Origin: Asterella californica
Taxonomy: Eukaryota; Streptophyta; Marchantiopsida; Marchantiales; Aytoniaceae
Assembly (NCBI GenBank): GCA_036924285.1
Contig: JAYKYS010000009.1
Location: forward strand, 9,176,001 to 9,240,000
DNA length: 64,000 nt
Direction: 5' to 3'
A program made the position numbers and the translations under genes. Every line of letters begins with the position of its first letter. Position 1 is the first letter of the stretch. Positions 10,033 through 58,213 of the stretch are shown one piece after another. The notes beneath the pieces are model-generated. The model had not been told where the DNA came from. It was given only the letters and a program-made list of their open reading frames with translations, and ran no database searches.

Positions 10033-11683
10033 TATCGCGTCGGATTTTTTGCGTGAAGGATGTCCATGAAAACGTGAGGTTCCTGGCTGTGGAGATGTTG
10101 TGTGCCAAATAGAGACAAGACAGAGAAGAACAACCACGAAAACGAACGCGCAATATATACCACTCCAAAACACTGCCGTTTCTTTCTCCTAACAGCACAA
10201 AACTAAGGAACAGACCAGAGCGATCTGTAACCTACTTCAGAAGCCCTAAAACAAACCCCTGAATCGCAACCCTAGCCTGAAATCGCCAAAGCGTAGCTCA
10301 AAGCAAGAGAAACTTCTCTTTGCTAACAAACAGAGCCACAGCAGTATCACAAGATCCAAACTCAAGTCCAAACCACATCCATGTATAAGCTCTTAGCTAA
10401 AGCTAGCTACCACAAGCTGTATACAACCAACCAGAATTCTAACAAACTCAAAAGAGCAAAACCCGTAGCGAAGAAACCGAAAAAAGCCTATCTGTGGACT
10501 TCCTCTTTTCGCTGAACAAACTTCAGACGTCGATAGGGTCTCCTCCGCTGACTCCGTTAACCCAAGAAACCTTCAGATCCGACTCCCAACAGCCGAGATA
10601 TCGCCGATTTTCGGTCGCAGGTGACCGAACCTCCAAAAACTCCTCCCTGCGGCTTAAAACCGCTCACACCGCACAAACGGATCGTCCAAACTGATATCCG
10701 TCTTCGCTGACAGATAGATCTAGCTACCATGAACCCAACGAGACTCCAAACAAGTCGTTTGGAGTTCCCCTTGCAAAACCACTCGAGAAATTTGGCCGCA
10801 GGTTACAAAAAACTGACGTAAATCAGCTCCCTCCGGCTCAAACTTGCTCACCACACTCAAACCAACAATCCAATTCACACACAATCTTCTCCTATGAGTA
10901 GATGAAGACTCCCTGATCGCGTAGGCACCAAGAACGAAGAGCTTGGCTCACCGATCGCGAAGTACAGCCCAACCTCAGATCGCAGGTGAACGAAAATCTG
11001 ATGTAAGCGCTTCCCTGCGAGTCAATTTCACTCAGAACTTCCAAACCGCCCGATGAAAACTGGTATCGTCTTCAATTTCCTGTAGAACTCGGTGTTTTGA
11101 TCCCGTTGGATCCAAGGACAGCAAGTTTGGACTCCGGAACGATCCGAACGGTCCAACTCTCTTTCACAGATAACTGAAAACTCGAAATCTGCTTCCTGCG
11201 TCTCAATTTCACTCAGTACGCACTCTCCGATCCGTCGCTTCCCTAACCGTTTGAACCAGTGCGTAGCCTGCACAGATCTGAACCTAACGACACCTTGCGA
11301 ACCCGAACCGTCCGTTGACAGGTCGTAGACGCAAGCTAGTCCCTTAAGCACCCCCTTGCAACAGTCTCTGTACGTACAATTCACTCCTGAATACCTGAAT
11401 AATAAGAAGCAGGCCCCTTGCGTCTTTGATATACCGCCTGAAGCCCTAAATACCCAGTCAGCAAGTAACTAGAAGCCTAGCTTGATTTTACCTTCTTTCG
11501 AATCGCGTAACTTTTCCACTAGGCGTCCAAACGAAGTAGACAAAGTGCCTGTGGAAAGCTGACAAGGAGCTCTACCCATCTATGCGATGAAAATGGAGAT
11601 CTGAGATTGTGCCAAAAACCCGTAAGCTGGGGCCTAGCTTGTTTTCTCCATCTTTCGAGTCTTGTAACTTCTCCACTAGGCGT
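10033..11683 (-). repeat. 5' LTR of element A, first part
   Basis: This is the inner 1651 bp of the right-hand LTR; it matches 5552-7220 and lacks two short stretches present there. The remainder (20395-20741) lies beyond the inserted gypsy element. The two parts sum to 1998 bp once the 4-bp duplication is removed, against 2027 bp for the other LTR. Confidence 0.88.
11680..11683 (+). other. Target site duplication GCGT, left
   Basis: GCGT precedes the LTR here and follows the other LTR at 20391-20394. Uninterrupted copies of the target read actaggcgtccaaac, confirming a 4-bp duplication. Confidence 0.88.
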
Positions 11684-13056
11684 TGTCGCGCTACTTGGCG
11701 GCTACATGCTTGACTTCTACTCCGACGCTTAGGTTTAGTAGTTCTAGAAGTTAGCTCATATTACTTCTAGTCCTTTATATATATGTTTGACACCTTTGCA
11801 TACGGTGTTAATACTATTTTGAGTCCTAGTAGGCTGATAGTATGTTAGTTATCTTGTTCAAGCATTTGTGCGCTTGTGCAAGTGACTTCTTACTTGTCTA
11901 TGACGTTCAATGTACATAACTTAGGGTTTCCATGCTGATAGGGGTTTGAGCTCATGGGTTGTACTTACTTGTCGCCCATGCACGCTTTCTAGCTAATTTA
12001 AGTTATTTTTCGGGGCTATGTGTCATTTTAGGTAGTTTAAGTTTTACGCTGGCACTCTAGGGGGCTTGACGTGGTAGCCTATGAGTGTAGATAAGTTACC
12101 AGGTAGTTTAAGGCACAAAAGGACAGTCAAGTGGAGCTATGAACTCCCATTGGTCCATTTTTGTCTTTTGTAAAACTCTAAGTTTAGAAACAGAGTTCTA
12201 GAGGAGAGTTCGAGCAATTGGTGAGGTATCTTCGAAATCTGAGAACAAAGGAAGAGAGAGCTCGTCGTGCCAAGCACTGTCAGTGAAATTTTTGCTCGAT
12301 TTGGATCAATAAACAAGGAGTTATGCCCAATTGAAGTTCGGATTGTGCCAAAACTGCGTCACTTTTGTTGATTTTGGGGTTTTCGGTGCCAATTGCAGCA
12401 GAATTGAGGAAATCACTTCAAAACTTCGTGGTTGCGTTCACTGTCAGGAGGGCTACGACTGTCCAAAAAGTTTTGAATCATTTGAGTAATTGAGTAATTC
12501 AGGGCGGCCGCTGAAGCAGAGGGGGTCTGAAAAGCTCTTAATCTAGAGCAGCGACTTTAGAGAAGGAGATCTGGAGTTCTACAAACATTCAGGAGTCCCA
12601 ACTTCACAGGGATGTTCAGCATCCTGTAGACTTCAAATACTGTGAGAAGATTTGAAATTCATCGAGCCAATTCTCTGTTCTATGTTTGAATAGCTGTCTA
12701 GGTACCAGAAATTGCCATAATTCTCTTATTCAGAACTTTTCTATTCATATCTCCGTGTCAGAATTTGATCTCAGGTTGAAACTTCGTCTGTGAGTTCAGT
12801 AGTACCTCATTTGCATGTAGGGGAAGTTTAGAGGTCTAAACCTTCATAGTTTTCCTCTCTTTGAGTGTCAAAGTTCACCGCTTAAGCCTATTACTACCAG
12901 TGAGACCTAAATTTCGCTTTTTGAGCATATCAGAGGATCCTACACTCCTGTGTGAGTGTTTATAGCTCCTGTTGTGACCTGAAAGCCAACCTCTTGAGTA
13001 AACAACCACAGCCAGAAGCCCGGCGCTTTCCTAGGTAGACGGATCACACTCCGACA
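11684..13056 (+). repeat. 5' LTR of the autonomous element
   Basis: The LTR runs from TGTCGCGCTACTTGG to CACTCCGACA. It contains a TATA-like run TTATATATATG near 11775-11785, the best candidate promoter of the element. The same length and sequence recur at 19018-20390. Confidence 0.96.
11775..11785 (+). promoter_or_regulatory. TATA-like box in the LTR
   Basis: TTATATATATG lies about 90 bp into the LTR and recurs at 19109-19119. It is the strongest TATA candidate in the LTR; no start site can be assigned from sequence alone. Confidence 0.5.
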
Positions 13057-13067
13057 TACTCTCTTTT

Positions 13068-13085
13068 TGGTGAACTCGACGTGAA
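13068..13085 (+). other. Primer binding site of the autonomous element
   Basis: TGGTGAACTCGACGTGAA starts 12 nt after the LTR. It is identical over 18 nt to the sites of the gag-only elements A and B. The complementary tRNA is not recognised; a fragment or unusual primer is possible. Confidence 0.78.
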
Positions 13086-13132
13086 ACACCTAGGGTGGGA
13101 GTTTTCTTGAGAGTGTTACAGGATCAGATATC

Positions 13133-15505
13133 ATGGCCAACCAAGGATCATCAAGTGGAGGTGTTGCTGCTGCTCAGCAACCTATTCAGTTTGATGCTGC
13201 TACGATGAAGATGTTCCAAGCTTTTTCCATGTTTATGCAGCAGCAGCAGAGCACAGAGAGGAAGGAGGTATTAGCAACCAAGGCGTTGCAATCGGTGGTG
13301 CATCAGATGGATCAGTTCAAGGGGACAGATATTTCCAAGTATGTGCGATACTATGCTAGGGAGATGGAGGTGAACAAGGTACCTGAGAAGGAGATGGTGG
13401 AGAACTTTGAACTTGTTGTTGTCCCTGAGATTCGTGGGCGTGTGAAGGAGCTCAAGCAGCAGCAAGGACAGAGTTGGGAGAGCTTTATGCGCGCTTTGAA
13501 GGAGGAGTACTACACTGAAGATTCAGAGAGGGTGACCAAGAGAACATTCTTGGAGTGGGTGGTGAAACCTAACAAAGGTTTGTCTGTAAATGAGTTGTTA
13601 AGGGAGTTTGATCGTCAATATGCTCAGCTTTCTAGGACAGAGAAGCTTACACTAGAGGTTGAGAAGACCGAGCTTTTCCTACAAGCAGCGGACGTGACTA
13701 TTCAGGAGAAGCTTGAGCTGTTGCTGGAAGACAAGAGTGAGGAGAGAGGATTGAAGACTGACTGGAAGGAGGTTGAAGAGGCTGTCTCTTTGCTGGCCAA
13801 GAGACAGAGAAGAAGGGACAAGGTGGTGGTAAGTGAAGCAGCACCTCTGATAATTCCTGTCAAGCAGTTGCCTACTAAGCCTGCTTTGGTAATTGCTAGA
13901 GAGGAAGACTCACCGCTTGATGAGTTGATTAAGGGTATGAAGGAGCTTAAGCTTAAGCTCACTAGGTTAGAAGAGAAGGAGCAGAATGTACAGCCTGCTA
14001 TGCAGAGACCTCAGATGAGAGAAGGCTTTGTTCATCGTTGTATATGGTGTGATAGCCTAGACCATGTAAGGAGAGATTGTGGGGAGTTTTCAGATGCATT
14101 GAGGAAGGATCTGATCTTCTTCAAAGATGGTAAGATCCATTTGAGAGAGACTGGGATGATGTTGGGAACCAACTTTGGCAAGGGTGGTATGAAGAGACTT
14201 GTGAATGAGATATCAGCATCACATGCTGTTTCTCTTGTGAATGCTGCTACCTGTGGAGTGAAAGTGGAGATGGAGAGAGAGAAAGGGACTACTGGGTTGT
14301 GGTCAGATGTAGTGCGGTCCGTAGCTAGAACAGAGCTAGACAAGGATGTGCTACGAAGGGTTGGCAACTCAATTAGAGAAACTACAGGATGGAATGACCC
14401 TGTGGATACTATGTCAGTGCATGCTTATGTTGCAAGAAGTCAGCATGAAGCTGTACTAGAAGAAAAACGCAGGAGGGAGGATGCAGGTGAGGCTTCTACA
14501 GCCAAACGACCTGCTACAAGGAGTGAAAGGGCTAGACCAGAGGCAAGGCAGGAGACAACACCTACTCGGGAAGAGACTATGGAGGATCTACCACCTACAA
14601 CACCAAAGGAGAAGGAGAGAAGCAAGGAGAAGGGTAAGATGCCTGCATACAAACTTCAGTCTGATATTGAGATTGCTACAGACCTGAAGCAGGTGTTAGA
14701 GAATCGTATCTTGAATGGGAAGGTTGAGTTTACCTTGGGTGAGATTCTTGGGATAGCAAAGCGTGAGTTCCATGAGGTTATCATAGATATCATCAAGAGG
14801 AAACGTCAGATTTTGGGTGAAGCAGCTACGCTTAACGCTCTAGGGACCAAACTGTCGGAGGATGAGGAGGATGAGATTGCTGGTTACTGCTCTCAAGTAT
14901 CAGAGGGAAGATCAGATCAGCATGTGAGGTTTGAAGATGAGGTGGAAGCATCGCAGAAGAGCCATTATTCTCACAACCATTGGGCGAGAGCAACCACAGA
15001 GACCTTAGTGAAGCTGGGAGATCTAGAGGAACCTGTGGTGGCGTTGATTGATCATGGCTCAGAGATTAATCTGATGTCTAAGGAGCTGTACAAGCGTGGG
15101 AGGTGGCCCATAGACACCGATCATGGATGGCTTATCCGTGCTGCCAACAACCAGAGGGGAGAACTCTATGGTGCTTGTCCCAACATCAAGGTAACTGTGG
15201 GTGACATCAGTGATGTTCAGAATTTCTTTGTGCAAGACATGTCAACCTATCCTATCATTCTAGGGCAGCCTTACATTACTGCTGTTAGAATGGAGACACG
15301 AGTTATGGATGATGGTTCAGCCTATGCTAGGATACGTAGTAGAGACGGCAAAAGAGCTGTTCAGTTTTTGACCGTTGCTACAGAACATGAGAGGAATCGT
15401 GATAGCTTGAGAGACCGTCCACTACCTAAGATTACTCAGGAGTTTAGAGAGTCTAGGGGTTTTGGCAGAGTACCATTGAAGAGCGAGACTTCAACGGTAC
15501 AGTAG
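13133..15505 (+). CDS. gag-pr: Gag-protease polyprotein (ORF1)
   Basis: ATG at 13133 opens a 790-residue ORF. Residues about 15-260 form the capsid-like Gag region homologous to the gag-only elements. A CCHC zinc knuckle C-I-W-C-D-S-L-D-H-V-R-R-D-C lies near residue 301. A charged, low-complexity linker (about 440-505, rich in K, E, R, P, T) follows. The C-terminal part is an aspartic protease with A-L-I-D-H-G-S-E-I-N-L-M-S near residue 637 and the flap and C-terminal elements after it (I-I-L-G-Q-P-Y). The catalytic triplet reads D-H-G where retropepsins usually have D-[ST]-G. The ORF ends in TAG at 15503, 40 nt after a slippery heptamer that would shift ribosomes into pol. It gives structural proteins in excess over enzymes. 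Confidence 0.95.
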   Translation: MANQGSSSGGVAAAQQPIQFDAATMKMFQAFSMFMQQQQSTERKEVLATKALQSVVHQMDQFKGTDISKYVRYYAREMEVNKVPEKEMVENFELVVVPEIRGRVKELKQQQGQSWESFMRALKEEYYTEDSERVTKRTFLEWVVKPNKGLSVNELLREFDRQYAQLSRTEKLTLEVEKTELFLQAADVTIQEKLELLLEDKSEERGLKTDWKEVEEAVSLLAKRQRRRDKVVVSEAAPLIIPVKQLPTKPALVIAREEDSPLDELIKGMKELKLKLTRLEEKEQNVQPAMQRPQMREGFVHRCIWCDSLDHVRRDCGEFSDALRKDLIFFKDGKIHLRETGMMLGTNFGKGGMKRLVNEISASHAVSLVNAATCGVKVEMEREKGTTGLWSDVVRSVARTELDKDVLRRVGNSIRETTGWNDPVDTMSVHAYVARSQHEAVLEEKRRREDAGEASTAKRPATRSERARPEARQETTPTREETMEDLPPTTPKEKERSKEKGKMPAYKLQSDIEIATDLKQVLENRILNGKVEFTLGEILGIAKREFHEVIIDIIKRKRQILGEAATLNALGTKLSEDEEDEIAGYCSQVSEGRSDQHVRFEDEVEASQKSHYSHNHWARATTETLVKLGDLEEPVVALIDHGSEINLMSKELYKRGRWPIDTDHGWLIRAANNQRGELYGACPNIKVTVGDISDVQNFFVQDMSTYPIILGQPYITAVRMETRVMDDGSAYARIRSRDGKRAVQFLTVATEHERNRDSLRDRPLPKITQEFRESRGFGRVPLKSETSTVQ
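15457..15500 (+). promoter_or_regulatory. Predicted -1 programmed ribosomal frameshift signal
   Basis: Slippery heptamer G GGT TTT at 15457-15463 is in the correct register of the Gag frame (agg|ggt|ttt). A spacer GGCAGA (15464-15469) follows, then a hairpin: GTACCATTGAAG (15470-15481), loop agcgaga, CTTCAACGGTAC (15489-15500). The 12-bp stem has one A/C mismatch. The pol frame opens exactly at 15457, directly after a TAG at 15454-15456, and the Gag stop lies at 15503-15505. The pattern X-XXY-YYZ, a 5-9 nt spacer and a stable stem are the known requirements for -1 frameshifting. A pseudoknot with downstream bases was not assessed. Confidence 0.85.
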
Positions 15506-18500
15506 AGCTAGGATTCTCGCCTGATCCAGTAGAGCATGAGGCTTTATCCACTGGCTTCTTAGGATTGACGGCATGTGGGTCAGTGTGTTATAGGAAGGTT
15601 GAGAATCTGAAGAGGTTTGAGAGGCAACATGTGAAGTGTGTACAGCAGTCTTTGTGGGACAGTGGAGAGTTAGCAGGAGATGAATATATATCTGGAGTGT
15701 TTGAAGAGCAGTATTTGGTAGATACTATAGGGGAGTTGAAATCTATAGTAGAAAGTTCTGTAGATGATGTAGATAGAGTGGTGAGAGTGAGCTCCAAGGA
15801 GCTTTATGATGTAATTGATAAGTTTATAGATCGACAAGAGGTGTATGTGGAGACCAAGTACAAGTCAGTGGCAAAGAAAGTTAAACCAGTGGCTTTGCCT
15901 TTACCACTCGACTACAATCAGAAGATGGAGCAAGCTGCACGAGAATCGACGCTCAGAGGACCGAGAAGAATTGGGCACCAGTTCACAGAAACAACACTGA
16001 AGGAGCTGAGGATTGGAGGTGATGGGTTTCTTACTGAGCAAGAGAAGAAGAGCTTCAAGGAGATGCTATCTAGGCATGGTAAGGCGTTTGCGTTTGAGTC
16101 ACATGAAGTAGGATGTGTAGATCCAAGTGTAGTTGCACCTATGGTAATCTTTACTATACCGCATGTGCCTTGGAATCTACGTCCTATCCCTGTGCCTAGA
16201 GCTCATCTGCCAAAGCTGATAGACTTGCTCAATGAGAGGATTAGGATGGGTATCTTGGAACCATCTATAGCTCCCTATTCTAGCAGATGGTTTACTGTTC
16301 CGAAGAAAAGTGGAGCTTTGAGATTCATTCAAGATATGCAGCCAGTTAACAAGGTAACTATCAGGAATACGGGTATAGGACCTATTGTAGACGAGTTTGC
16401 GGAGGCTTTTGCTGGTCGTGCTATCTATTCCATGGGAGACTTATATTCAGGTTATGACCAGTTTCAATTATCCTCTGAGAGTAGAGACTTGACTACAATG
16501 AGGACACCTTTAGGGTTACTAAGGATGTGCACCTTACCGCAAGGTGCTACCAATTCGGTAGCACATATGATGAATGGCATGAACAAAGTTTTGAGGGACT
16601 TCATTCCTGAAAAAACTATGCCATTCCTTGATGATGTGCCGATCAAAGGGTGTGCTGAGGAGGAGAAGAATGAGGTAAAAGATCAGAGGGGGTGCCGTAA
16701 GTTTGTAGCAGATCACATAGCTGATTGTGATAAGATACTGAGTCGACTGGAAGAGGTTCATTTGACTTTATCAGGAGCCAAGTCTGTGTTTGGAGTACAA
16801 GAGGTGTTAATAGTGGGACATCTGTGTGGATCTTATGGTCGGAAACCTTGTCCAAACAAGGTTGATGCCATCCGAAGGATGAAGGAGACATGTGGATCGG
16901 TTACTGAGGTGAGAAGGTTTCTAGGAGCATGTGTGTTTTATCATATATGGATTCCACACTTTGCACATGTAGCAGATCCGTTGTACAAGCTGCTGAGGAA
17001 GGGGCAAAGATTTCAGTGGCAAGAGGAGCAAAGCGAGTCTATGAGGAAGTTGAAGGATCTTTTAGCTTCACCACCAACTCTACGGAAGGTAACATATGAG
17101 TTGGGCAGATCTGTTATCCTTACTGTTGATACTAGTCCTATTGGCATTGGATGGGCTGTAGGACAAAACGATGAGGATGGAAATAGATATGTGGTGCGTT
17201 TTGGTGCTAAGGTATTAAGTTCACGGCAGAGAGACTACCCTCAGGTCAAGAGAGAGCTGTGGGGAGTAGTTACTGCGATGAAGAGTGATAAGGAATACTT
17301 GATAGGAGCACCTGTGGTTGTGGAGACAGATTGTTTACCTCTCTTGGGAATGATCACTAGCTGTACAACTCCAGATATTGCTATGTTGAGGTGGATAGCA
17401 TATATCAAGTCCTTGAACCCAGAGTTTAGACATATTGCAGGGAAGGATAATCCTGTGGCAGATATGTTATCAAGGGCTAGGTATTACGATGAGAAAGAAA
17501 TGATAGATGATCAGGAAGATGTGGGAACAGAGTTCTATTCTAGTGCTCTTGCTAGAAGAGATAGAAGCTGTTTTGCAGCCTCGTTGGAGTTTTTTGAGGA
17601 AACTATGTATGATGGCGAGTGGTTGGATCTTGGGCGCTATTTGAGTTCACTGGAAAGGCAAGAAGGCTGGTCTGATGCAGATTTCAAGAGGATCCGTAGG
17701 ATAGCTTATGGTTACTTTTTACAAGGAGGACATCTATGGAAGCGCCATAAGCTACAAGGAGGTATACCGCAGCGGGTGGTATGTGACCTAGAATCGCAGC
17801 AGAAGTTGATCAAGGAGTTCCATGAGAGTTTATGGGCTGGTCATAGAGGAGTTTGGGCTACATTTGCCAAGATGAAGGAAAAGTATTGGTGGAAGGGTAT
17901 GTATAAGGATGTAGTACAGTTTGTTTCATCTTGTATACCCTGCCAGATGTATTCCAACGTACGTCATCGTGATGGATTGCATCCTACTTATCCTTTAGCC
18001 ATTCATTACAAATGGGTAGTTGATCTGGTAACTATGCCATTTGGACTTGGACAAATGAGGTATCTAGTCTTGGCTAGAGAAGATCTATCTAACCAAGTTG
18101 AAGGTCGTGCTCTGAGGACGAAGACCACTGCTAGTGTCTGCCGCTTTCTACTTGAAGATGTTATTTGTAGGTATGGGTGTGTGGGAAAGATCACTGCAGA
18201 TAGGGGTGAGCTGGATGCACAAGAAGCAGTTGAATTCTTCAAGCGATTGGGAATCAAGTTGGCGTTAACCACTGCTTACAATCCTGAAGGGAATGGCAAG
18301 AGCGAAAGAGGTCATCCGCCAATCATCAAAGCTTTGGTAAAAGCTTGCAAGGGTAAGATCCGTGAATGGCCTAGACTGTTACCATTTGCTTTGTGGGCAG
18401 ATCGTACAACTCATAGTACCGTTACAGGTTACATGCCAGCAGAGTTGATACTAGGGCAAAAACCTGTGATGCCGATTGAGGAGGTTGTGCCTACTTGGAA

Positions 18501-18969
18501 TGTTTTGCCATGGGAAGATGGTAGAAGTACGGAGGATCTTCTTGCATTAAGGATCCAGCAGTTAGAACGAAGACCTGAGGATGTTGCCAAAGCTGTGGAA
18601 ATGTTAAAGACTTCTAGAGAGAGAAACAAAGGCAGATTTGATAGGACGCATAGATTACGACCCAAACCAGTTAAGGAAGGTGATTGGGTGTTAGTCTATG
18701 ATAGTAGTCTTGATAATCAGCATAGCGCTATCAGAAAGTTTTCCAAGAGATGGTTCGGACCTTATGTGGTGTTAGAAGTTTATGATAATGCCACATACTC
18801 TTTGAGAGAGTTAGATGGTGCAGTGCTCAAGATACCAGTCGCAGGGAAGAGAATCAAGCTCTTTAGAAGGAGAGGGGATGACCAGAACATTGCAGAGCTT
18901 ACTGAGGATGAAGCTGAAGACTCAATGGAGGTTGAAGATGAATTTGAAGCTGAAGCTGAAGAGTCTTGA
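15457..18969 (+). CDS. pol: Pol: RT, RNase H, integrase (ORF2, reached by -1 frameshift)
   Basis: The ORF is open from 15457 to TGA/stop at 18969 with no ATG near its start; the first in-frame ATG lies far downstream (about 15925), so expression as a Gag-Pol fusion is most likely. RT has P-K-K-S-G-A-L-R-F, L-P-Q-G-A-T and the catalytic F-L-D-D (near nt 16625). RNase H follows (L-T-V-D-T-S, E-T-D-C-L-P-L-L). Integrase has the H-x4-H...C-x2-C finger (H-E-S-L-W-A-G-H; C-I-P-C), catalytic D (V-V-D-L-V-T-M), D (T-A-D-R-G-E-L) and E (G-K-S-E-R-G-H). A GPF/Y-type module (R-W-F-G-P-Y) lies near nt 18750, followed by an acidic tail; no chromodomain. All catalytic residues are present. Confidence 0.95.
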   Translation, partial: GFWQSTIEERDFNGTVELGFSPDPVEHEALSTGFLGLTACGSVCYRKVENLKRFERQHVKCVQQSLWDSGELAGDEYISGVFEEQYLVDTIGELKSIVESSVDDVDRVVRVSSKELYDVIDKFIDRQEVYVETKYKSVAKKVKPVALPLPLDYNQKMEQAARESTLRGPRRIGHQFTETTLKELRIGGDGFLTEQEKKSFKEMLSRHGKAFAFESHEVGCVDPSVVAPMVIFTIPHVPWNLRPIPVPRAHLPKLIDLLNERIRMGILEPSIAPYSSRWFTVPKKSGALRFIQDMQPVNKVTIRNTGIGPIVDEFAEAFAGRAIYSMGDLYSGYDQFQLSSESRDLTTMRTPLGLLRMCTLPQGATNSVAHMMNGMNKVLRDFIPEKTMPFLDDVPIKGCAEEEKNEVKDQRGCRKFVADHIADCDKILSRLEEVHLTLSGAKSVFGVQEVLIVGHLCGSYGRKPCPNKVDAIRRMKETCGSVTEVRRFLGACVFYHIWIPHFAHVADPLYKLLRKGQRFQWQEEQSESMRKLKDLLASPPTLRKVTYELGRSVILTVDTSPIGIGWAVGQNDEDGNRYVVRFGAKVLSSRQRDYPQVKRELWGVVTAMKSDKEYLIGAPVVVETDCLPLLGMITSCTTPDIAMLRWIAYIKSLNPEFRHIAGKDNPVADMLSRARYYDEKEMIDDQEDVGTEFYSSALARRDRSCFAASLEFFEETMYDGEWLDLGRYLSSLERQEGWSDADFKRIRRIAYGYFLQGGHLWKRHKLQGGIPQRVVCDLESQQKLIKEFHESLWAGHRGVWATFAKMKEKYWWKGMYKDVVQFVSSCIPCQMYSNVRHRDGLHPTYPLAIHYKWVVDLVTMPFGLGQMRYLVLAREDLSNQVEGRALRTKTTASVCRFLLEDVICRYGCVGKITADRGELDAQEAVEFFKRLGIKLALTTAYNPEGNGKSERGHPPIIKALVKACKGKIREWPRLLPFALWADRTTHSTVTGYMPAELILGQKPVMPIEEVVPTWNVLPWEDGRSTEDLLALRIQQLERRPEDVAKAVEMLKTSRERNKGRFDRTHRLRPKPVKEGDWVLVYDSSLDNQHSAIRKFSKRWFGPYVVLEVYDNATYSLRELDGAVLKIPVAGKRIKLFRRRGDDQNIAELTEDEAEDSMEVEDEFEAEAEES

Positions 18970-19000
18970 TCTGGATCTGGCACATACCGGAGGATGTGCA

Positions 19001-19017
19001 GGTTCAGAGGGGGTGGA
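19001..19017 (+). other. Polypurine tract of the autonomous element
   Basis: GGTTCAGAGGGGGTGGA directly precedes the 3' LTR. The same 17 bases precede the 3' LTR of element A on the minus strand. Confidence 0.88.
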
Positions 19018-20390
19018 TGTCGCGCTACTTGGCGGCTACATGCTTGACTTCTACTCCGACGCTTAGGTTTAGTAGTTCTAGAAGTTAGCTCATATTACTT
19101 CTAGTCCTTTATATATATGTTTGACACCTTTGCATACGGTGTTAATACTATTTTGAGTCCTAGTAGGCTGATAGTATGTTAGTTATCTTGTTCAAGCATT
19201 TGTGCGCTTGTGCAAGTGACTTCTTACTTGTCTATGACGTTCAATGTACATAACTTAGGGTTTCCATGCTGATAGGGGTTTGAGCTCATGGGTTGTACTT
19301 ACTTGTCGCCCATGCACGCTTTCTAGCTAATTTAAGTTATTTTTCGGGGCTATGTGTCATTTTAGGTAGTTTAAGTTTTACGCTGGCACTCTAGGGGGCT
19401 TGACGTGGTAGCCTATGAGTGTAGATAAGTTACCAGGTAGTTTAAGGCACAAAAGGACAGTCAAGTGGAGCTATGAACTCCCATTGGTCCATTTTTGTCT
19501 TTTGTAAAACTCTAAGTTTAGAAACAGAGTTCTAGAGGAGAGTTCGAGCAATTGGTGAGGTATCTTCGAAATCTGAGAACAAAGGAAGAGAGAGCTCGTC
19601 GTGCCAAGCACTGTCAGTGAAATTTTTGCTCGATTTGGATCAATAAACAAGGAGTTATGCCCAATTGAAGTTCGGATTGTGCCAAAACTGCGTCACTTTT
19701 GTTGATTTTGGGGTTTTCGGTGCCAATTGCAGCAGAATTGAGGAAATCACTTCAAAACTTCGTGGTTGCGTTCACTGTCAGGAGGGCTACGACTGTCCAA
19801 AAAGTTTTGAATCATTTGAGTAATTGAGTAATTCAGGGCGGCCGCTGAAGCAGAGGGGGTCTGAAAAGCTCTTAATCTAGAGCAGCGACTTTAGAGAAGG
19901 AGATCTGGAGTTCTACAAACATTCAGGAGTCCCAACTTCACAGGGATGTTCAGCATCCTGTAGACTTCAAATACTGTGAGAAGATTTGAAATTCATCGAG
20001 CCAATTCTCTGTTCTATGTTTGAATAGCTGTCTAGGTACCAGAAATTGCCATAATTCTCTTATTCAGAACTTTTCTATTCATATCTCCGTGTCAGAATTT
20101 GATCTCAGGTTGAAACTTCGTCTGTGAGTTCAGTAGTACCTCATTTGCATGTAGGGGAAGTTTAGAGGTCTAAACCTTCATAGTTTTCCTCTCTTTGAGT
20201 GTCAAAGTTCACCGCTTAAGCCTATTACTACCAGTGAGACCTAAATTTCGCTTTTTGAGCATATCAGAGGATCCTACACTCCTGTGTGAGTGTTTATAGC
20301 TCCTGTTGTGACCTGAAAGCCAACCTCTTGAGTAAACAACCACAGCCAGAAGCCCGGCGCTTTCCTAGGTAGACGGATCACACTCCGACA
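19018..20390 (+). repeat. 3' LTR of the autonomous element
   Basis: The repeat is 1373 bp, TGTCGCGC to CTCCGACA, same length and apparently same sequence as the 5' LTR. GCGT follows as the right target duplication (20391-20394). Confidence 0.96.
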
Positions 20391-20394
20391 GCGT

Positions 20395-20741
20395 CCAAAC
20401 GAAGTAGATGAAGTGCCTATGGAAAGCTGACAAGGAGCTCTATCCACTGGTGCGATAAAAACGAAGATCCGAAGTGGTGCCAAAAACCCATAAGCTGGGG
20501 CCTAGCTTATTTTCTCCATCTTTCGAATCCTGTAACTTTTCCACTAGGCGTCCAAACGAAGTAGACAAAGTGCCTGTGGAAAGCTGACAAGGAGCTCTAC
20601 CCATCTATGCGATGAAAATGGAGATCTGAGATTGTGCCAAAAACCCGTAAGCTGGGGCCTAGCTTGTCTTCTCATGAGGTTCTTTGGAGCGACAAGCATC
20701 GAAGTTTGAATTTCAGGTAGGAGCCGGTCCACGACACGACA
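20395..20741 (-). repeat. 5' LTR of element A, outer part
   Basis: This is the remainder of the interrupted LTR. It holds the last tandem units and ends (plus strand) GGTCCACGACACGACA, followed by the target duplication CCGT at 20742-20745. Confidence 0.88.
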
Positions 20742-46947: not shown

Positions 46948-48988
46948 ATGAAGTCAGGCCAGGATATCCCGGCATGGCTGTCGGAGTTCAATGGTGCTCT
47001 GCTGAGAAAGGACATACCCGGAGTGTTGGAGCTGTTCCTGGAGGACGAATGTTTCTGGCGAGACCTCGTAGCCTTCACTTGGAATGTACACACTTGTGAG
47101 TCCAAGAGTGAAATAGCAGTGATGCTAGAACAAACTCTCGACAGGACTGAGCCCAGCGGCTGGGAGCTCGATGGATCAGTAATGGACTCCGACGGTGTTT
47201 TGGAATCAGGCCTCAAGTTCGAAACGCCCTTGGCCAGGTGCCGAGGATACATGAAGCTGAAAGAGGGCAAGTGTTGGGTTCTTCTCACTACCATGTGGGA
47301 ATTGAAAGGCCATGAGGAGCAGGCAGGAAAGCTCAGGCCCGAAGGTTTGCCATACGGTGCCGTGCGCGACAGGAAAACATGGCTTCAGAAGAAAGAGCAA
47401 GAGGAGCAAGAACTGGGACATAGCCAGCAGCCTTACTGCTTGATTGTGGGAGGTGGGCAGGGAAAGAGATCCTCGAATAATATCCTGTTCACAGCTTGTT
47501 TCTTTCTAAAATTACAGCAGGAAAGCACCCATGGCCAACAGGACGATTGTTTTACTTCACCACTAGTGGTCAAAATCTCCACGACTCGACAGTTCGACCG
47601 TCTGTTAATCTAAACCCTGATCAGAAATGTTTTCAACTGTCAGAAGCATCGTCCTAACACTCTGTTCCTTGGATCGGATGCTTCACAATGTCGTGTAATG
47701 TCAGGCAGGAATAGCTCTGGGAGCGAGACTGAAGGCGTTAGGAGTGCCCACCATTATCCTGGAGAAGAATGAGAAGGCAGGGGATACATGGCGCAATCGT
47801 TACAGCACGCTCTGTACTCACACGCCAGTGTGGTCGGATCACATGCCGTACATGAATTTCCCCTCCACATGGCCATTGTTCTGTCCGAAGGATCAGCTCG
47901 GGGACTTCTTGGAGTGCTACGTGAAGTTGATGCGTCTCAACTATTGGTGCTCCTCAGTATGCACGTCTGCCAGTTTCGATGAGAAAGAAGGCCACTGGAA
48001 CGTGTCGGTGGAGAACAAAAGGACTTCGTCGACGATAACCTTGCAGCCTGTCCATCTAATTCTGGCCACAGGCTATTCTGGGTTCGCTAATGTGCCCCGA
48101 TTTAAGGGAGCAGAATCGTTCCAAGGAGTACAGGTTCACAGCTCGGAGTTTCGCAGTGGAGAAGAGTGGCAAGGCAAGCAGTGTGTGGTTATAGGGGCTT
48201 GTGTATCCGGACACGATATCTGTCAAGATCTATGGGAGCAAGGAGCGGCTGAGGTGACAATGGTGCAAAAGACTTCTACCTGCGTCGCACCTCTTAGCAT
48301 ATTCATTCCACCTCCTAATGTAGATCAAATTAATTCCTCCACTTCAGTTGTGGAGGACTCTGATATGCTCATGTTTGCCAATCCCTTCAAGCTCATACCT
48401 AGGTTTTTTATTCCTCTAAACGAGCAGATGGCTAAGGCAGGCGCCGAGTTCTACAGCCGGCTGGAAAAGACCGGATTCAAGATCGATTTTGGGGAAGACG
48501 GTTCTGGATTACTGATGAAACTGTATCGAAAAGGAGGAGGTTATTACATAGATGTAGGGGCCTCGGAGCTTATAATCAACGGAGAGATTAAGGTCAAAAG
48601 CGGTGTGAAGGTGGTGGAAGTGAGACCCAAGGCGATTCTGTTCAGCGATGGAAGTGAGATTCCTGCTGACTTGATAGTCTATGCCACAGGCTATACCAAT
48701 ATGCAGGAATTCGTAGCCAAGCTCATATCGCAGGAGATGGCTGACAAGGTGGGTTTGATCTGGGGTTTAGGCTCAGACACCCACAACGATCCCGGGCCTT
48801 GGCAGGGTGAGTTGAAGAATATCTGGAAGCCGCTTGTGCATCCCAACTTGTGGATTATGGGTGGTTCTTTGAATCAGTGCAGGCAGATGTCCCGCATCCT
48901 GTCTATCCAACTCAAAGCACGAATGGAACTGATACCGACACCAGTCTTCTGGTCCCCGAACCGCAGCAAATCATGGGACAAGTCTTGA
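46948..48988 (+). CDS. NTF2-like/flavin-containing monooxygenase, two exons
   Basis: Exon 1 (46948 to about 47460) encodes an NTF2-like N-terminal domain (L-F-L-E-D-E-C-F-W-R-D-L-V-A-F-T-W) and the start of the FAD Rossmann fold (L-I-V-G-G-G-Q). Exon 2 (about 47705-48988) continues A-G-I-A-L-G-A-R-L-K, then the FMO-type F-x-G-x3-H-x3-F (F-Q-G-V-Q-V-H-S-S-E-F), the NADPH-side V-V-I-G-A-C-V-S-G-H-D, and the C-terminal Y-A-T-G-Y and K-A-R-M-E-L-I-P-T-P blocks. About 598 residues, as usual for this group B flavoprotein family, which is common in fungi and bacteria. It would oxygenate a small, unknown substrate. ATG at 46948 is chosen; the upstream GTG is not used by plants. The 244-nt intron lacks a GT donor that would keep the FAD motif (see findings). 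It may be expressed or already damaged. Confidence 0.85.
47461..47704 (+). other. Intron of the monooxygenase gene, borders not canonical
   Basis: The protein-preserving junction is ...GGTGGGCAG | GGAAAG...GTCAG | GCAGGAATA, a GG-AG intron. The nearest canonical choice, GT at 47453 with AG at 47707-47708, stays in frame but removes residues from the GxGxxG loop. Confidence 0.55.
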
Positions 48989-53395: not shown

Positions 53396-53431
53396 AGGTT
53401 CAGGTTGAATCTTTGTTGAACACCATCGACA

Positions 53432-56400
53432 ATGGAAGCCGTGCCGACTGGGATGGACGAGATGCAGGCGTTTCTGAAGAAGTTGGAAGGCCGACTTGAG
53501 CAAGTGGAAGCTGAGAATAAGGTGCTTAAGGCGGATTTAGCTCAAGCAAAAGCAACACAGGAGAAAGAAGCAGAGGTCCCTGTACTACAAGCTGAGCAAG
53601 TCAAGGATTTAGCACTGCTGGGTGAAGGAGCAGTTGATGCTACTCAAGCAGATAAGAATGAAGATGGATCACAGAAGGTGCAAGAGAATGTTGCGGAAGG
53701 GAGCTCAGCCAAAGAAGGGCACAAGCGGAAAGTGAAGTGGGCTGAACCAGCGACACCATCAGCCTTCAACGGTGAGAAAAGCTTTTCCAAGTTTGAATTG
53801 TGGGTTACTGAGATGGAGAATTACTTGGAGAACTTCGATGAGCGCAGCTGGTTCACCTATGCTGTTAGTAGACTGGAAGGAGAGGCTAAAGAATGGTATG
53901 GAGGTCAACAGCGGATGAGGAGTTTGAATGGTACAACTCCTATGTCCACTTGGCCGGAGTTGAAGGATGAACTCAGAAGACATCTAGTACCGGTGGATGA
54001 AGCTACACAGTTTCGGCTGGAGCTCATTCATCTGAGACAGACAGGGAGTATCAGGCAGTATCTCCAGCGATTTTCTGAGTTGGTTACTCGTTTGCACATG
54101 GTGGATCGCACCGACTTGTTGTTTCACTTGAAGAAAGGTCTGCAGGGTTTCTATGCTGGTGTGTTTGATAGCTGGGTTATGTTTCACAAGTCCGAGGACA
54201 TGCAAGACTTGTTTGCATTTCTGGAAGCAGCAGAGAACACTAGGGAACGTAATTACACCGTGCAGCCTTCCAAGTTTCAGCGTGGAACAAGTGGTGACGA
54301 GCCTAGTCGAGGATTTTGGCGTAATCCTCAAGGACAGATAGCGTCCTCTCAGAGTAGAGGTGGTAGAGGACGTGGTGGTGGAAGATTTGGTACATCTGGA
54401 AGGGGATTTTCTCGTGGCTCTCAGCAGCGAGGAGTCACTCGTGGTCCTACTCAGACCCGACCTACTGGATCCTATGCATCCAATGCAGGATCCAACCAAG
54501 CTTCGACTTCAGGTGCTAGGAGCAGTGGCGCTAGCAGTGCTACACCTTCAAGAACGATCATCTGTTTTCGATGCGGACGAGATGGTCACATCGCTCGTGA
54601 GTGTCCCCAACGTTCAACAGCGAGCAATGTTCGTGGGTTGACAGCTGAAGAGACAACCAATGTGGAAGAACCAGTTGAGGCGACTACTGAAGCAGAGGTA
54701 TGTGCTAGTGAGCATTTGGTAGAGCATGGGGATTTTCTGCCGTGGATTGAAGTGAAAATAGGAAACCATCGGTGTTGTTTGCTTATTGATACTGGAGCAG
54801 ATGTGAATGTCTTGGATGAAAAACTAGTCAGGACCTTGGGGGTGACTAGAACCAAGATCATGAGCCCGTTGTTGGTAAGGTTTGTGCAAGGTAGCACAAC
54901 CGTTACAGAAAAGCTCATGAGTGTTCCTGTTACTGTTGGAGGGGTAACTAGGAAGCACGAGTTTTTAGTTATGAGCTTAGGTGACACGATGGAGGGTATC
55001 TTGTCCTGGTCTTGGTTACAAGAGACCAAGGCAAAGCTAGATGTTCAAGAAGGGAATGTCATTGTCATGGATCAATGGGGCTTGGGTCAACCACATCCAT
55101 TGGTCATCAAAGAGAGACCTAAGGAGCCAAACCATGCTGTCCGTAGGTTCCAACGAGCCAAGGTGGCATTTCAGATCTGCACAGCTAGACAATTTGGAAA
55201 GCAGATCAAGTCAGTAGATGAAGCTTGGGTTGCGGTGATGTCTAAACCCAAGGTGGAGACGGATGAGGAAGAACGTGTTGCTGCTCTTCCCATACATCCT
55301 GATATGCAGACATTGATTGAGAGGTATTCTCACCTAATGCCGGACCAGTTACCAACAGGACTTCCGCCGAGGAGAGCCTTGGATCATGCTATTGATCTGG
55401 TTCCTGGGGCTACCCCTACTGTAGTGCCATCAAGACGGATGTCGTTTGATGAGCTGACAGAGCTGAAGACTCAGTTGAAAGAGTTGGTAGCTCAGGGTAT
55501 CTTACGACCTAGTATATCACCTTATGCTGCCCCGGTGTTGTTCGTGGCCAAGAAGGATGGTGGTATTCGCATGTGTGCGGACTATCGTGCACTCAATAAG
55601 GTTACTGTCAAGAACAAGTACCCTCTTCCTCTCATGGATGAAACCACCGATCGGTTGGCCACAGGAAGGTATTTCACCAAGCTGGATCTGCGTTCTGGAT
55701 ATCATCAAATCCGGATCAAAGAAGGTGATGAAGAAAAGACAACTGTAAGGACGAGGTATGGCTTGTTTGAGTATACAGTGTTGCCGTTTGGATTGTCCAA
55801 TGCACCTGGTACTTTCTGCAAGCTAATGAACGAGATCTTCAGAGATCTCTTGGATGAGAGTGTTATCGTGTACCTAGACGATATCATCATCTTCTCATCC
55901 ACTTGGGATCAGCATCTAGTAGATGTTGAAATGGTGTTTAAGCGTCTAGAAGAACATCAACTCTATCTCAAGAAGAGCAAGTGCTCTTTTGGACAAGAGA
56001 GTGTAGTGTTTCTAGGATGTTTGATTGATGCGCAGAGCATTCATCCTAACAGGGCTAAGATTCGAGCCATTGTTGAATGGAAGAGACCTGAGAGTGTTCA
56101 TGAGCTCAGATCTTTTCTTGGGTTAGCCACATATTTTCGGCGCTTTGTTTATCAGTTTGCGCATAAAGCCGCACCTTTGTTTGGCTTATTACGCAAGACT
56201 TCCAAGGTTGTTTGGAATCCAGCAGCTGAAAGAGCGTTTCAAGGGTTGAAACAAGCACTGACAGAGATGCCCGTGCTAGCTCTTCCAAAGATGGGAGAAC
56301 CTTTCGAGGTTCACACCGATGCTTCCCAATGGACCATTGGAGGAGTGCTGATGCAAGGAAAGCATCCAGTGGCTTATGAAAGTCACAAGTTTTCAGAAAC

Positions 56401-58213
56401 AGAGGCAAAATGGCCCGCTCATGAACAGGAGATGTTCGCAGTTGTACATTGTCTGAAGCGTTGGGAGCATTATTTGTTACCAAGCAAGGTGACTGTTGTG
56501 ACGGACTGCGAGGGTAATACATACTTTCAGAGTAAACCTCGGTTGTCCCGCAAACAGCAGAGATGGCAAGTGGAACTTGCACGTTTTGATATCGAATGGC
56601 GGTATCAAAAGGGGAAGGAAAATATTCCAGCGGATGTATTAAGTAGACGTGTCCAGGCGTTAACAACTCAGGACACAAGTGAAGAGCTTTTGGATCGGAT
56701 CAGACAAGCATTGCCAGACGATCCGCAGGCTCAACGTTGGACCAGCCAACAAGGGAGAGATCCATTGGTACGTAATCTCTCATTTCGCAACGGCCTTTGG
56801 TTTTATAAGCAAACCAAGGTCTATGTTCCAGCTGGATCTCTACGGACACTAGTCATGCAAGAATGTCATGATTGTGAACTGGCTAGACATGGAGGGCAGA
56901 ATAGAACGTTACAACGAGTTAAAGAGCAGTTCTACTGACCGTCCATGTTGGAGGATGTTGTCAAGTATGTGCAGACTTGCTTGACATGTCAACAACAACG
57001 AACAGAGCGAAGGAAACCTGCAGGGTTGCTGAGACCATTGCCAATACCTGATAGACCTTGGGAGAGCATAAGTATGGACTTATGCACAGGTTTACCCGAA
57101 TCAGGAGGTTTTGATGCTCTGTTAGTTGTTATAGATCGTTTCAGTAAGCAAGCTCACCTCATCCCTTGTAGGGAAGCAGTGACGTCAAGAGGTGCCGCTG
57201 AACTGTTTATACGATATGTTTTTAAGTATCATGGGATGCCTAAAGACATTGTTTCAGATCTGGATAGGAGGTTTGTAGCTGATTTTTGGAAGGGTTTGTT
57301 TCGAAGGCTCGGAACTACCCTCAAGTTCAGTTCCTCTTATCATCCTGAAACTGATGGTCAGACGAAAAGGACGATCCAGATAGTAGAGCAAGGGTTGAGA
57401 AACTATATCATGCGAGATCAGAGTGATTGGAGCGAGCACTTGGACTTGGTGGAGTTTACATATAACAACACCAAGCACTCGAGTACAGGATTTAAACCAT
57501 TTGAAGTGGTTTATCGGGGTTCTCATGCACCTTGGACTCCTATAGCTCTGGCTACCAAGGGGCATGAAAATACAGGAAGGTCGAATCAGGATCCTCCAGA
57601 TCTAGAGACTTTCATACGTGTTCAGGGTACTGTGTTTCAAGAAGCCAAGAAACAAATGGAGAAGGCACAACAACGGTATGCTAAGTATGCAAACCGTGGT
57701 AGGCAAGATTTACAATTCGAAGAAGGACAGAGAGTCTGGTTGAGAACCAAGAACTTCAGAATCCCAGCAGGGGTGGATTTAGCCAAGAAGCTTCTTCCAA
57801 AGTGGGCAGGACCGTTCCTGATCGAGAAAAAGTTAGGTCCTGTGACCTATAAGTTACGTTTTCCAGCTAGTATGAAGCACTATCACCCCATCATTCATGT
57901 TTCTAACTTAAAGATGTTTCGTGAGGAACTAGAGTCGTTGCCAGGAAGATATCAGAAATGGCATCCAGTGTTAGAAGCATTACCAAGAGCTGATGATCTT
58001 GAGTTGATTGAGATAGTAGATCATCGAGCATCACCGAATCCAGATGGAGCTGGAGAACCCGTTACTCAATACCTATGTCGTTGGACAGGTAGAGTTCCGG
58101 GATTGGTAAGTGAAGCTTGGGAGTACCTAGATGATCTAGCGTTGTACAAGTTTCAAGAACCACTGCGAAGATATTTTGTGAGACGACAATCTGCAGTGGT
58201 TTCTTCCAGCTAA
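53432..58213 (+). pseudogene. gag-pol: Gag-Pol polyprotein of the chromovirus, stop in integrase
   Basis: One frame runs from ATG 53432 to TAA 58213 with a single TGA at 56936-56938. In order: coiled coil (residues 5-40), Gag domain (about 120-270), R/G-rich stretch, CCHC knuckle C-F-R-C-x4-H-x4-C (about 378), protease L-I-D-T-G-A-D (about 450), RT with Y-L-D-D (about 814), RNase H (V-H-T-D-A-S, about 960), integrase and a chromodomain-like end (E-I-V-D-H-R...Y-L-C-R-W-T-G...S-E-A-W-E-Y-L). The stop falls at F-Y-stop-P-S-M, where relatives have W (TGG to TGA), between the two halves of the integrase zinc finger. In the integrase core the usual G-Q-T-E reads G-Q-T-K, replacing the catalytic glutamate. 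Integration by this copy's own enzyme is not expected. Confidence 0.94.

Follow-up and report, generated by a model that had tools for sequence, protein, structure and literature searches.

The gag/pro/pol frameshift signals of mouse mammary tumour virus (MMTV) and simian retrovirus 1 (SRV-1) are H-type pseudoknots, and the slippery heptamer of barley yellow dwarf virus is GGGUUUU. In the consulted parts of a 2016 review (PMC5009743), G_GGU_UUU is counted among the most shifty heptamers and G_GAU_UUU is given as the site of pea enation mosaic virus; pol lies in the -1 frame in 28 of the 51 animal retroelements surveyed in 2003, the two plant long terminal repeat (LTR) element types with split frames known in that year have pol in +1, and those parts name no case of a -1 pol among plant LTR elements. 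Plant LTR elements are mostly described as having one open reading frame (ORF), with two ORFs in some groups (consulted parts of a 2019 survey, PMC6317226), and the consulted sections of a 2025 review (PMC12786077) attribute the excess of Gag in well-studied plant elements to splicing or separate RNAs, while listing frameshifting among plant, animal and yeast strategies with no plant case named. We found no report of a -1 frameshift signal of a plant LTR retrotransposon among the open-access papers that we searched, most subscription journals lying outside the search. Here we describe a 64,000-nucleotide stretch of Asterella californica (assembly GCA_036924285.1, contig JAYKYS010000009.1, positions 9,176,001 to 9,240,000; hereafter the window, in whose positions all coordinates are given), which carries a Ty3/gypsy retrotransposon with a candidate pseudoknot-stimulated -1 frameshift signal between Gag-protease and Pol. 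The kind of mechanism is well known; what seems new is the lineage and the natural record of covariation.

The Gag-protease frame (open 13094-15505) and the Pol frame (15457-18969) share 49 nt, 15457-15505, with Pol in the -1 register. The junction is composed as follows.

13133..15505, + strand: Gag-protease ORF; first ATG at 13133, frame open from 13094, stop TAG at 15503-15505
15457..18969, + strand: Pol ORF with reverse transcriptase (RT), RNase H, and integrase zinc-binding and core domains; no ATG before 15925
15457..15463, + strand: slippery heptamer G_GGU_UUU (GGGTTTT), in the Gag register (..AGG GGT TTT..)
15464..15469, + strand: 6-nt spacer GGCAGA, from the sequence
15470..15481, + strand: stem 1 of the putative pseudoknot, 5' arm, from fold and covariation
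15489..15500, + strand: stem 1 of the putative pseudoknot, 3' arm, from fold and covariation
15483..15488, + strand: putative stem 2, 5' arm GCGAGA, inside the stem 1 hairpin loop; 15482 is loop 1 (1 nt)
15501..15514, + strand: loop 3, 14 nt, holding the Gag stop; the most variable part of the signal among copies
15515..15520, + strand: putative stem 2, 3' arm UCUCGC, complementary to 15483-15488 and beyond the part covered by the original prediction

A Pol-frame stop (TAG, 15454-15456) stands directly 5' of the heptamer, and the first Pol-frame ATG, read by eye, is at 15925, leaving 156 Pol codons without an ATG. At the window's own rate (111 X_XXY_YYZ heptamers on the + strand), about 0.024 in-register sites would be expected by chance in the overlap. 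Stem 1 spans 12 positions (11 pairs and one A.C mismatch), closes a 7-nt loop and ends at 15500. The fold of 15464-15505 has an energy of -12.8 kcal/mol (z = -3.9), and 4 of 2,000 dinucleotide shuffles were as stable; the 42-nt fold after the heptamer is the most stable among the 111 + strand heptamers, and 2 of the 137 on the - strand are more stable. The junction thus combines an overlapping -1 ORF, an in-register heptamer and a structure 6 nt downstream, within the range of 5-9 nt typical of -1 programmed frameshifting. The original prediction, made from this sequence, had named the 49-nt overlap, GGGTTTT in register at its first base, the 6-nt spacer, the 12-bp hairpin with one mismatch and a 7-nt loop before the Gag stop, and a Pol without an ATG near its start; all of these were borne out. 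An Rfam search of the window gave 0 matches at the gathering threshold.

The lineage is abundant in the 516.7 Mb assembly of the element's own genome: a protease motif pattern was found at 1481 places (727 + 754; reversed control 0), and a sister RT motif at 1,902 places (956 + 946; reversed controls 0). Several distinct codon signatures occur among the first 100 places listed, which points to several large families. For comparison of copies, we took 90 of them, namely the 30 pattern places listed first and 60 of those that come next on contig C1; 86 were alignable, three having been dropped because they run into unrelated sequence (L089, L105, L112) and one because the fetched stretch was short (L142). 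The heptamer in the 86 copies is GGGTTTT in 78, GGATTTT in 3, GAGTTTT in 3, CGGTTTT in 1 and AGGTTTT in 1, so that a slippable heptamer is present in 81/86; in a separately chosen set of 19 copies (variant pattern), GGGTTTT is present in 16/19. The retention of the heptamer in other copies, which had been proposed as a check on the original prediction, was thus seen in both sets. In L065 and L066, two copies of the same family, GGATTTT replaces GGGTTTT, and the two forms are one G/A change apart within the family. Mean heterozygosity over the 86 copies is 0.026 in the heptamer, 0.011 and 0.021 in the arms of stem 1, 0.007 in the loop, 0.033 in the 3' arm of stem 2, 0.032 in upstream Gag and 0.066 in downstream Pol. 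Loop 3 reaches 0.077, compared to 0.007-0.033 in heptamer, spacer, loop and stems. Apart from loop 3, the diversity of the signal is about half of that of the flanks; protease windows are even lower. The 40 best copies are identical over 15441-15525 and are uninformative on covariation.

We also collected DNA of more divergent relatives from two sources, namely plant-like contigs within bacterial genomes (L001-L007) and the own genome. It should be noted that L001-L004, L006 and L007 are CAKZGI01 contigs (Trichormus sp.) and L005 is from CADCWO01 (Synechococcales), i.e., plant-type Ty3/gypsy sequences in cyanobacterial records, which are probably eukaryotic contamination of cyanobacterial bins; the Trichormus bin may come from the fern Azolla. 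The heptamers at the 20 relative junctions are GGATTTT (11), GGATTTC (3), GGGTTTT (3), GGTTTTT (2) and GAGTTTT (1). G_GRU_UUY is present at 17/20 junctions, in the own genome as well as in the other plant-like contigs, with a covarying stem at the same place. L001, L003 and L005 have G_GAU_UUU and the same -1 arrangement, with 1,171, 1,151 and 909 open Pol codons, respectively (L005 being ended by the contig end), and in eight own-genome relatives (L170, L171, L172, L175, L177, L178, L179, L180) the Pol frame is open through the short fetched stretch of 47-116 codons. The Gag stop lies directly behind the heptamer in L001, L003, L005, L006, L171 and L178. The layout of two ORFs with a slip site and a stem had originally been regarded as unusual; it stands as described, but it is no oddity of one element, since it recurs through the non-seed-plant lineage. 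Further stretches were considered and set aside: L174, L181 and L182 are not junctions; L087 was not counted, because it ends in a decayed junction without GGATTT; L079-L085 are the same contigs as L001-L004, L006 and L007; and L008, whose two ORFs overlap in the -1 relation but show no clear heptamer there, was left out. L008 (NZ_JQJH01000044.1) is a distantly related gypsy element (34% identity) from an assembly of Beijerinckia mobilis. Two scans of viral contigs gave no confirmed relative.

To measure covariation, the structure of the window was placed on two MAFFT alignments built from sequence alone: (i) A4, with 10 sequences (the window, seven plant-like contigs and two own-genome families); (ii) A3, with 11 sequences (the window and ten own-genome junctions). 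L002a, L176 and L180 were outside these alignments. The shuffles used as controls ignore relatedness, and the structure was derived from one row, so that all of the following comparisons with shuffles are strong indications, not probabilities. In A4, 83.9% of cells are paired under the whole structure, compared to 38.9-44.4% when the structure is slid along the alignment; 13/18 base pairs are changed on both sides (reached by 2/500 shuffles), and the covariation score is 0.578 versus 0.308 in shuffled alignments (reached by 0/500). In A3, 87.9% of cells are paired compared to 29.6-52.8% when slid, 10/18 pairs are doubly changed, and the covariation score is 0.483 versus 0.305 (reached by 0/500). 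The compensatory stem changes among other copies, which had been named as a further check, were therefore found in both sets.

Conservation and covariation among copies and families support the proposal that a -1 frameshift signal joins Gag-protease to Pol, and we consider it very likely, from these comparisons of sequence, that pseudoknot-stimulated -1 programmed frameshifting makes Gag-PR-Pol (PR, protease). Most ribosomes would terminate at 15503-15505, having made Gag-protease. Some would pause at the H-type pseudoknot (stem 1, 15470-15481/15489-15500; stem 2, 15483-15488/15515-15520) with GGU in the P site and UUU in the A site; the tRNAs would slip one base back onto GGG and UUU, and reading would continue in the Pol frame, giving Gag-PR-Pol. 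The rate of slippage at this site would set a Gag:Gag-Pol ratio, which is presumably important for particle assembly.

Several observations weigh against this reading, and they are given here together with the alternatives on which they bear. Among the copies, the variability of the heptamer (0.026) and of the 3' arm of stem 2 (0.033) is close to that of upstream Gag (0.032), and the 44-nt signal window ranks 23rd among 537 when these are ordered from the least variable upwards. For the whole structure in A3, pair types are no more numerous than in shuffles (405/500 reach their number). Most of the remaining points concern stem 2. Since the match of the window itself has p = 0.024 against shuffled downstream sequence, the case for stem 2 rests on the relatives. 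An initial automatic test, made on nine junctions with 55 nt of downstream sequence, gave a weak result (own mean score 9.0 versus 7.4 when swapped), with L002a, L005 and L006 no better than shuffles. The second test, which speaks for stem 2, used 14 representatives (leaving out L002a, L168, L175, L176, L178, L179 and L180, which are near-duplicates or decayed copies), a 29-nt downstream stretch, and arms set by hand after looking, i.e., not blind; in this test the loop-downstream duplex had a true mean of -10.4 kcal/mol versus -7.4 when swapped, matched by 0/20,000 permutations, with a Fisher sum over shuffles of 5e-9 and single-locus p values from 0.001 to 0.50 (the latter for L001). Also in favour of stem 2, taken alone in A4, 78.3% of its cells are paired compared to 36.7-60.0% when slid, 0/500 shuffles reach either the cells paired or the covariation score, and 66/500 reach the 5/6 doubly changed pairs. 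In A3, 97% of stem 2 cells are paired compared to 31.8-56.1% when slid, but this is weakly above shuffles (45/500 for cells paired, 19/500 for the covariation score), because the letters of stem 2 are largely conserved there. Stem 2 thus appears well supported in the wider set and weakly in the own-genome set.

These weak results speak for the alternative that the slip is real and its stimulator a simple hairpin, stem 1 alone, with an incidental loop-downstream match; such a hairpin is strong by itself (z = -3.9), and stem 2 letters vary little in A3. We regard this explanation as improbable in view of the pairing and covariation of stem 2 in A4 and the permuted duplex energies, and also because the partner is found at a similar downstream distance in different letters (TGCGGGG/CCCCGCA in L003, GAGGG/CCCTC in L004) and the loop varies less among copies than loop 3 does. 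Of the original proposal, which took the stimulator to be a hairpin, stem 1 stands; the whole stimulator is in all likelihood an H-type pseudoknot rather than a simple hairpin, with the loop predicted to pair with 15515-15520.

Decay of the relatives is another point of concern. Pol-frame stops occur within ~30 codons in L004, L007, L156, L168, L173 and L176, after 58 codons in L002a and after 234 in L002b; these eight junctions look decayed. At the remaining junctions the Pol frame stays open as far as the available sequence goes. Together with the many decayed copies in the genome (4/90 fetched were dropped), such stops at 8/20 junctions could be taken to mean that the element is a dead copy with originally one ORF, split into two frames by a chance indel. 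That possibility, to which we assign next to no weight, is refuted by the return of the same -1 relation in other families and in further plant-like contigs, with 909-1171 open Pol codons in three cases; in addition, the LTRs of the element are identical, and many of the listed homologues are separate Gag (~770 aa) or Pol (~1,100-1,180 aa) proteins. The homologues also include several Riccia gene models of 1465-2007 aa that fuse Gag and Pol in one model. They bridge the junction at differing places, either by real introns or as predictor artefacts, and would agree with Pol being reached through an intron spliced over the junction (as in Ogre), through reinitiation or from a separate Pol mRNA, the overlap being a by-product. 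None of these routes predicts a conserved heptamer and two covarying helices, however, nor an in-phase overlap with the heptamer at its first base, and the 156 Pol codons without ATG also stand against them; we consider them very unlikely compared to pseudoknot-stimulated frameshifting.

Among named proteins, the nearest belong to Riccia sorocarpa (Pol, 70-71%), Physcomitrium patens, Riccia fluitans and Adiantum nelumboides. A FastTree tree of 95 Pol sequences, including that of the window, joins the window first to three unnamed proteins (support 0.98), then to a further 16 (0.87), and then to a Riccia-containing set (1.0). Thirty Gag homologues have a natural C-terminus close to the end of the protease. 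In 29 of them the slip place is occupied by Asp-Phe, either at the C-terminus itself or five residues ahead of it, and in the remaining one (P0166) by Val-Phe; the residue preceding Asp is one with a G-ending codon in 29/29, as G_GAU_UUU requires, and is Met in 7. On balance we lean towards the view that the pseudoknot -1 frameshift is the ancestral, lineage-wide gag/pol mode of non-seed-plant Ty3/gypsy elements (liverworts, mosses, ferns), maintained across thousands of copies, with repeated exchanges between G_GGU_UUU and G_GAU_UUU (the latter often followed at once by the stop) and both helices re-paired, and that it is the first in plant LTR retrotransposons. If this is true, the genomes of non-seed plants contain frameshifting of the retroviral type in the form of a lineage-wide covarying pseudoknot signal, and the thousands of copies are a natural mutational record of tolerated heptamers and helices. 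Such elements may be misread by annotation that requires one ORF or that joins the two frames through predicted introns.

The retrotransposon itself is complete at 11684-20390 (8,707 bp), and its other parts are listed below.

11680..11683, no strand: target-site duplication GCGT, left copy, in flank sequence; the same 4 bases follow the 3' LTR
11684..13056, + strand: 5' LTR, 1373 bp, TG...CA; exact repeat of 19018-20390 with 0 mismatches
15048..15074, + strand: putative aspartic-protease motif DHGSEINLM, from the sequence
19006..19017, + strand: polypurine-tract-like stretch preceding the 3' LTR, assigned by position only
19018..20390, + strand: 3' LTR, 1373 bp, identical to the 5' LTR
20391..20394, no strand: target-site duplication GCGT, right copy, in flank sequence

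With its LTRs, target-site duplication and the domain order protease, RT, RNase H, integrase, it is a young Ty3/gypsy element of a non-seed-plant lineage. The Gag translation, read by eye, contains a zinc-knuckle-like CIWCDSLDHVRRDC, and the Gag-protease ORF scored 25.3 bits against Pfam DUF4100, under the cut-off of 27.9. We take DHGSEINLM to be the aspartic-protease motif; apart from it, the Pfam scan gave no protease match in the protease region. The integrase core of Pol scored 29.1 bits in Pfam, under the cut-off of 32.6. Repeat copies at 11475-11648 and 20343-20673, with a spacing of 157 bp on the right, flank the element, which seems to have been inserted into a local repeat array.

Elsewhere in the window, a second Ty3/gypsy element (53420-58213, + strand) has ORFs of 1172 aa and 424 aa in the same frame, with one in-frame stop between them, inside the integrase zinc-binding domain. 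Pfam domains from Gag to integrase are in order, with a Tf2-type SH3 domain, and this looks like a decayed one-ORF element. An ORF at 47699-48988 with FMO-like / pyridine nucleotide-disulphide oxidoreductase domains is likely a host gene fragment.

Compared to known systems, the architecture of the predicted signal resembles that of MMTV and SRV-1 in having a stem 1, a very short loop 1, a stem 2 of about 6 bp, a longer loop 3 and a spacer of about 6 nt. It differs in host and lineage, and in that the protease of the window element is in the Gag frame, so that one shift is enough. The -1 signals of plant RNA viruses use the same heptamers and a structured downstream stimulator, and a stop at or just after the slip site is found in several element families here; in contrast to them, the signal of the window belongs to a genomic LTR element, leads from Gag-PR to Pol, and comes from one lineage with both heptamers. 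The pea enation mosaic virus heptamer (G_GAU_UUU, with a stop 3 nt on, in the consulted parts of PMC5009743) is the one found in the relatives, and animal LTR elements with -1 pol, as treated in the same parts, share the -1 register and the heptanucleotide site. Among plant elements, the closest likeness in features, rather than in placement in a tree of RT, RNase H and integrase, is to Phygy, a non-chromovirus Ty3/gypsy group of Physcomitrella (PMC6317226). Phygy elements prefer NCGN targets (consulted parts of that survey), and the 4-bp duplication GCGT of this one copy fits NCGN; no chromodomain was found at E <= 0.001 in the Pfam scan of Pol, the coding region fills the internal part, as in Phygy, and Physcomitrium proteins are among the Gag homologues of the window.

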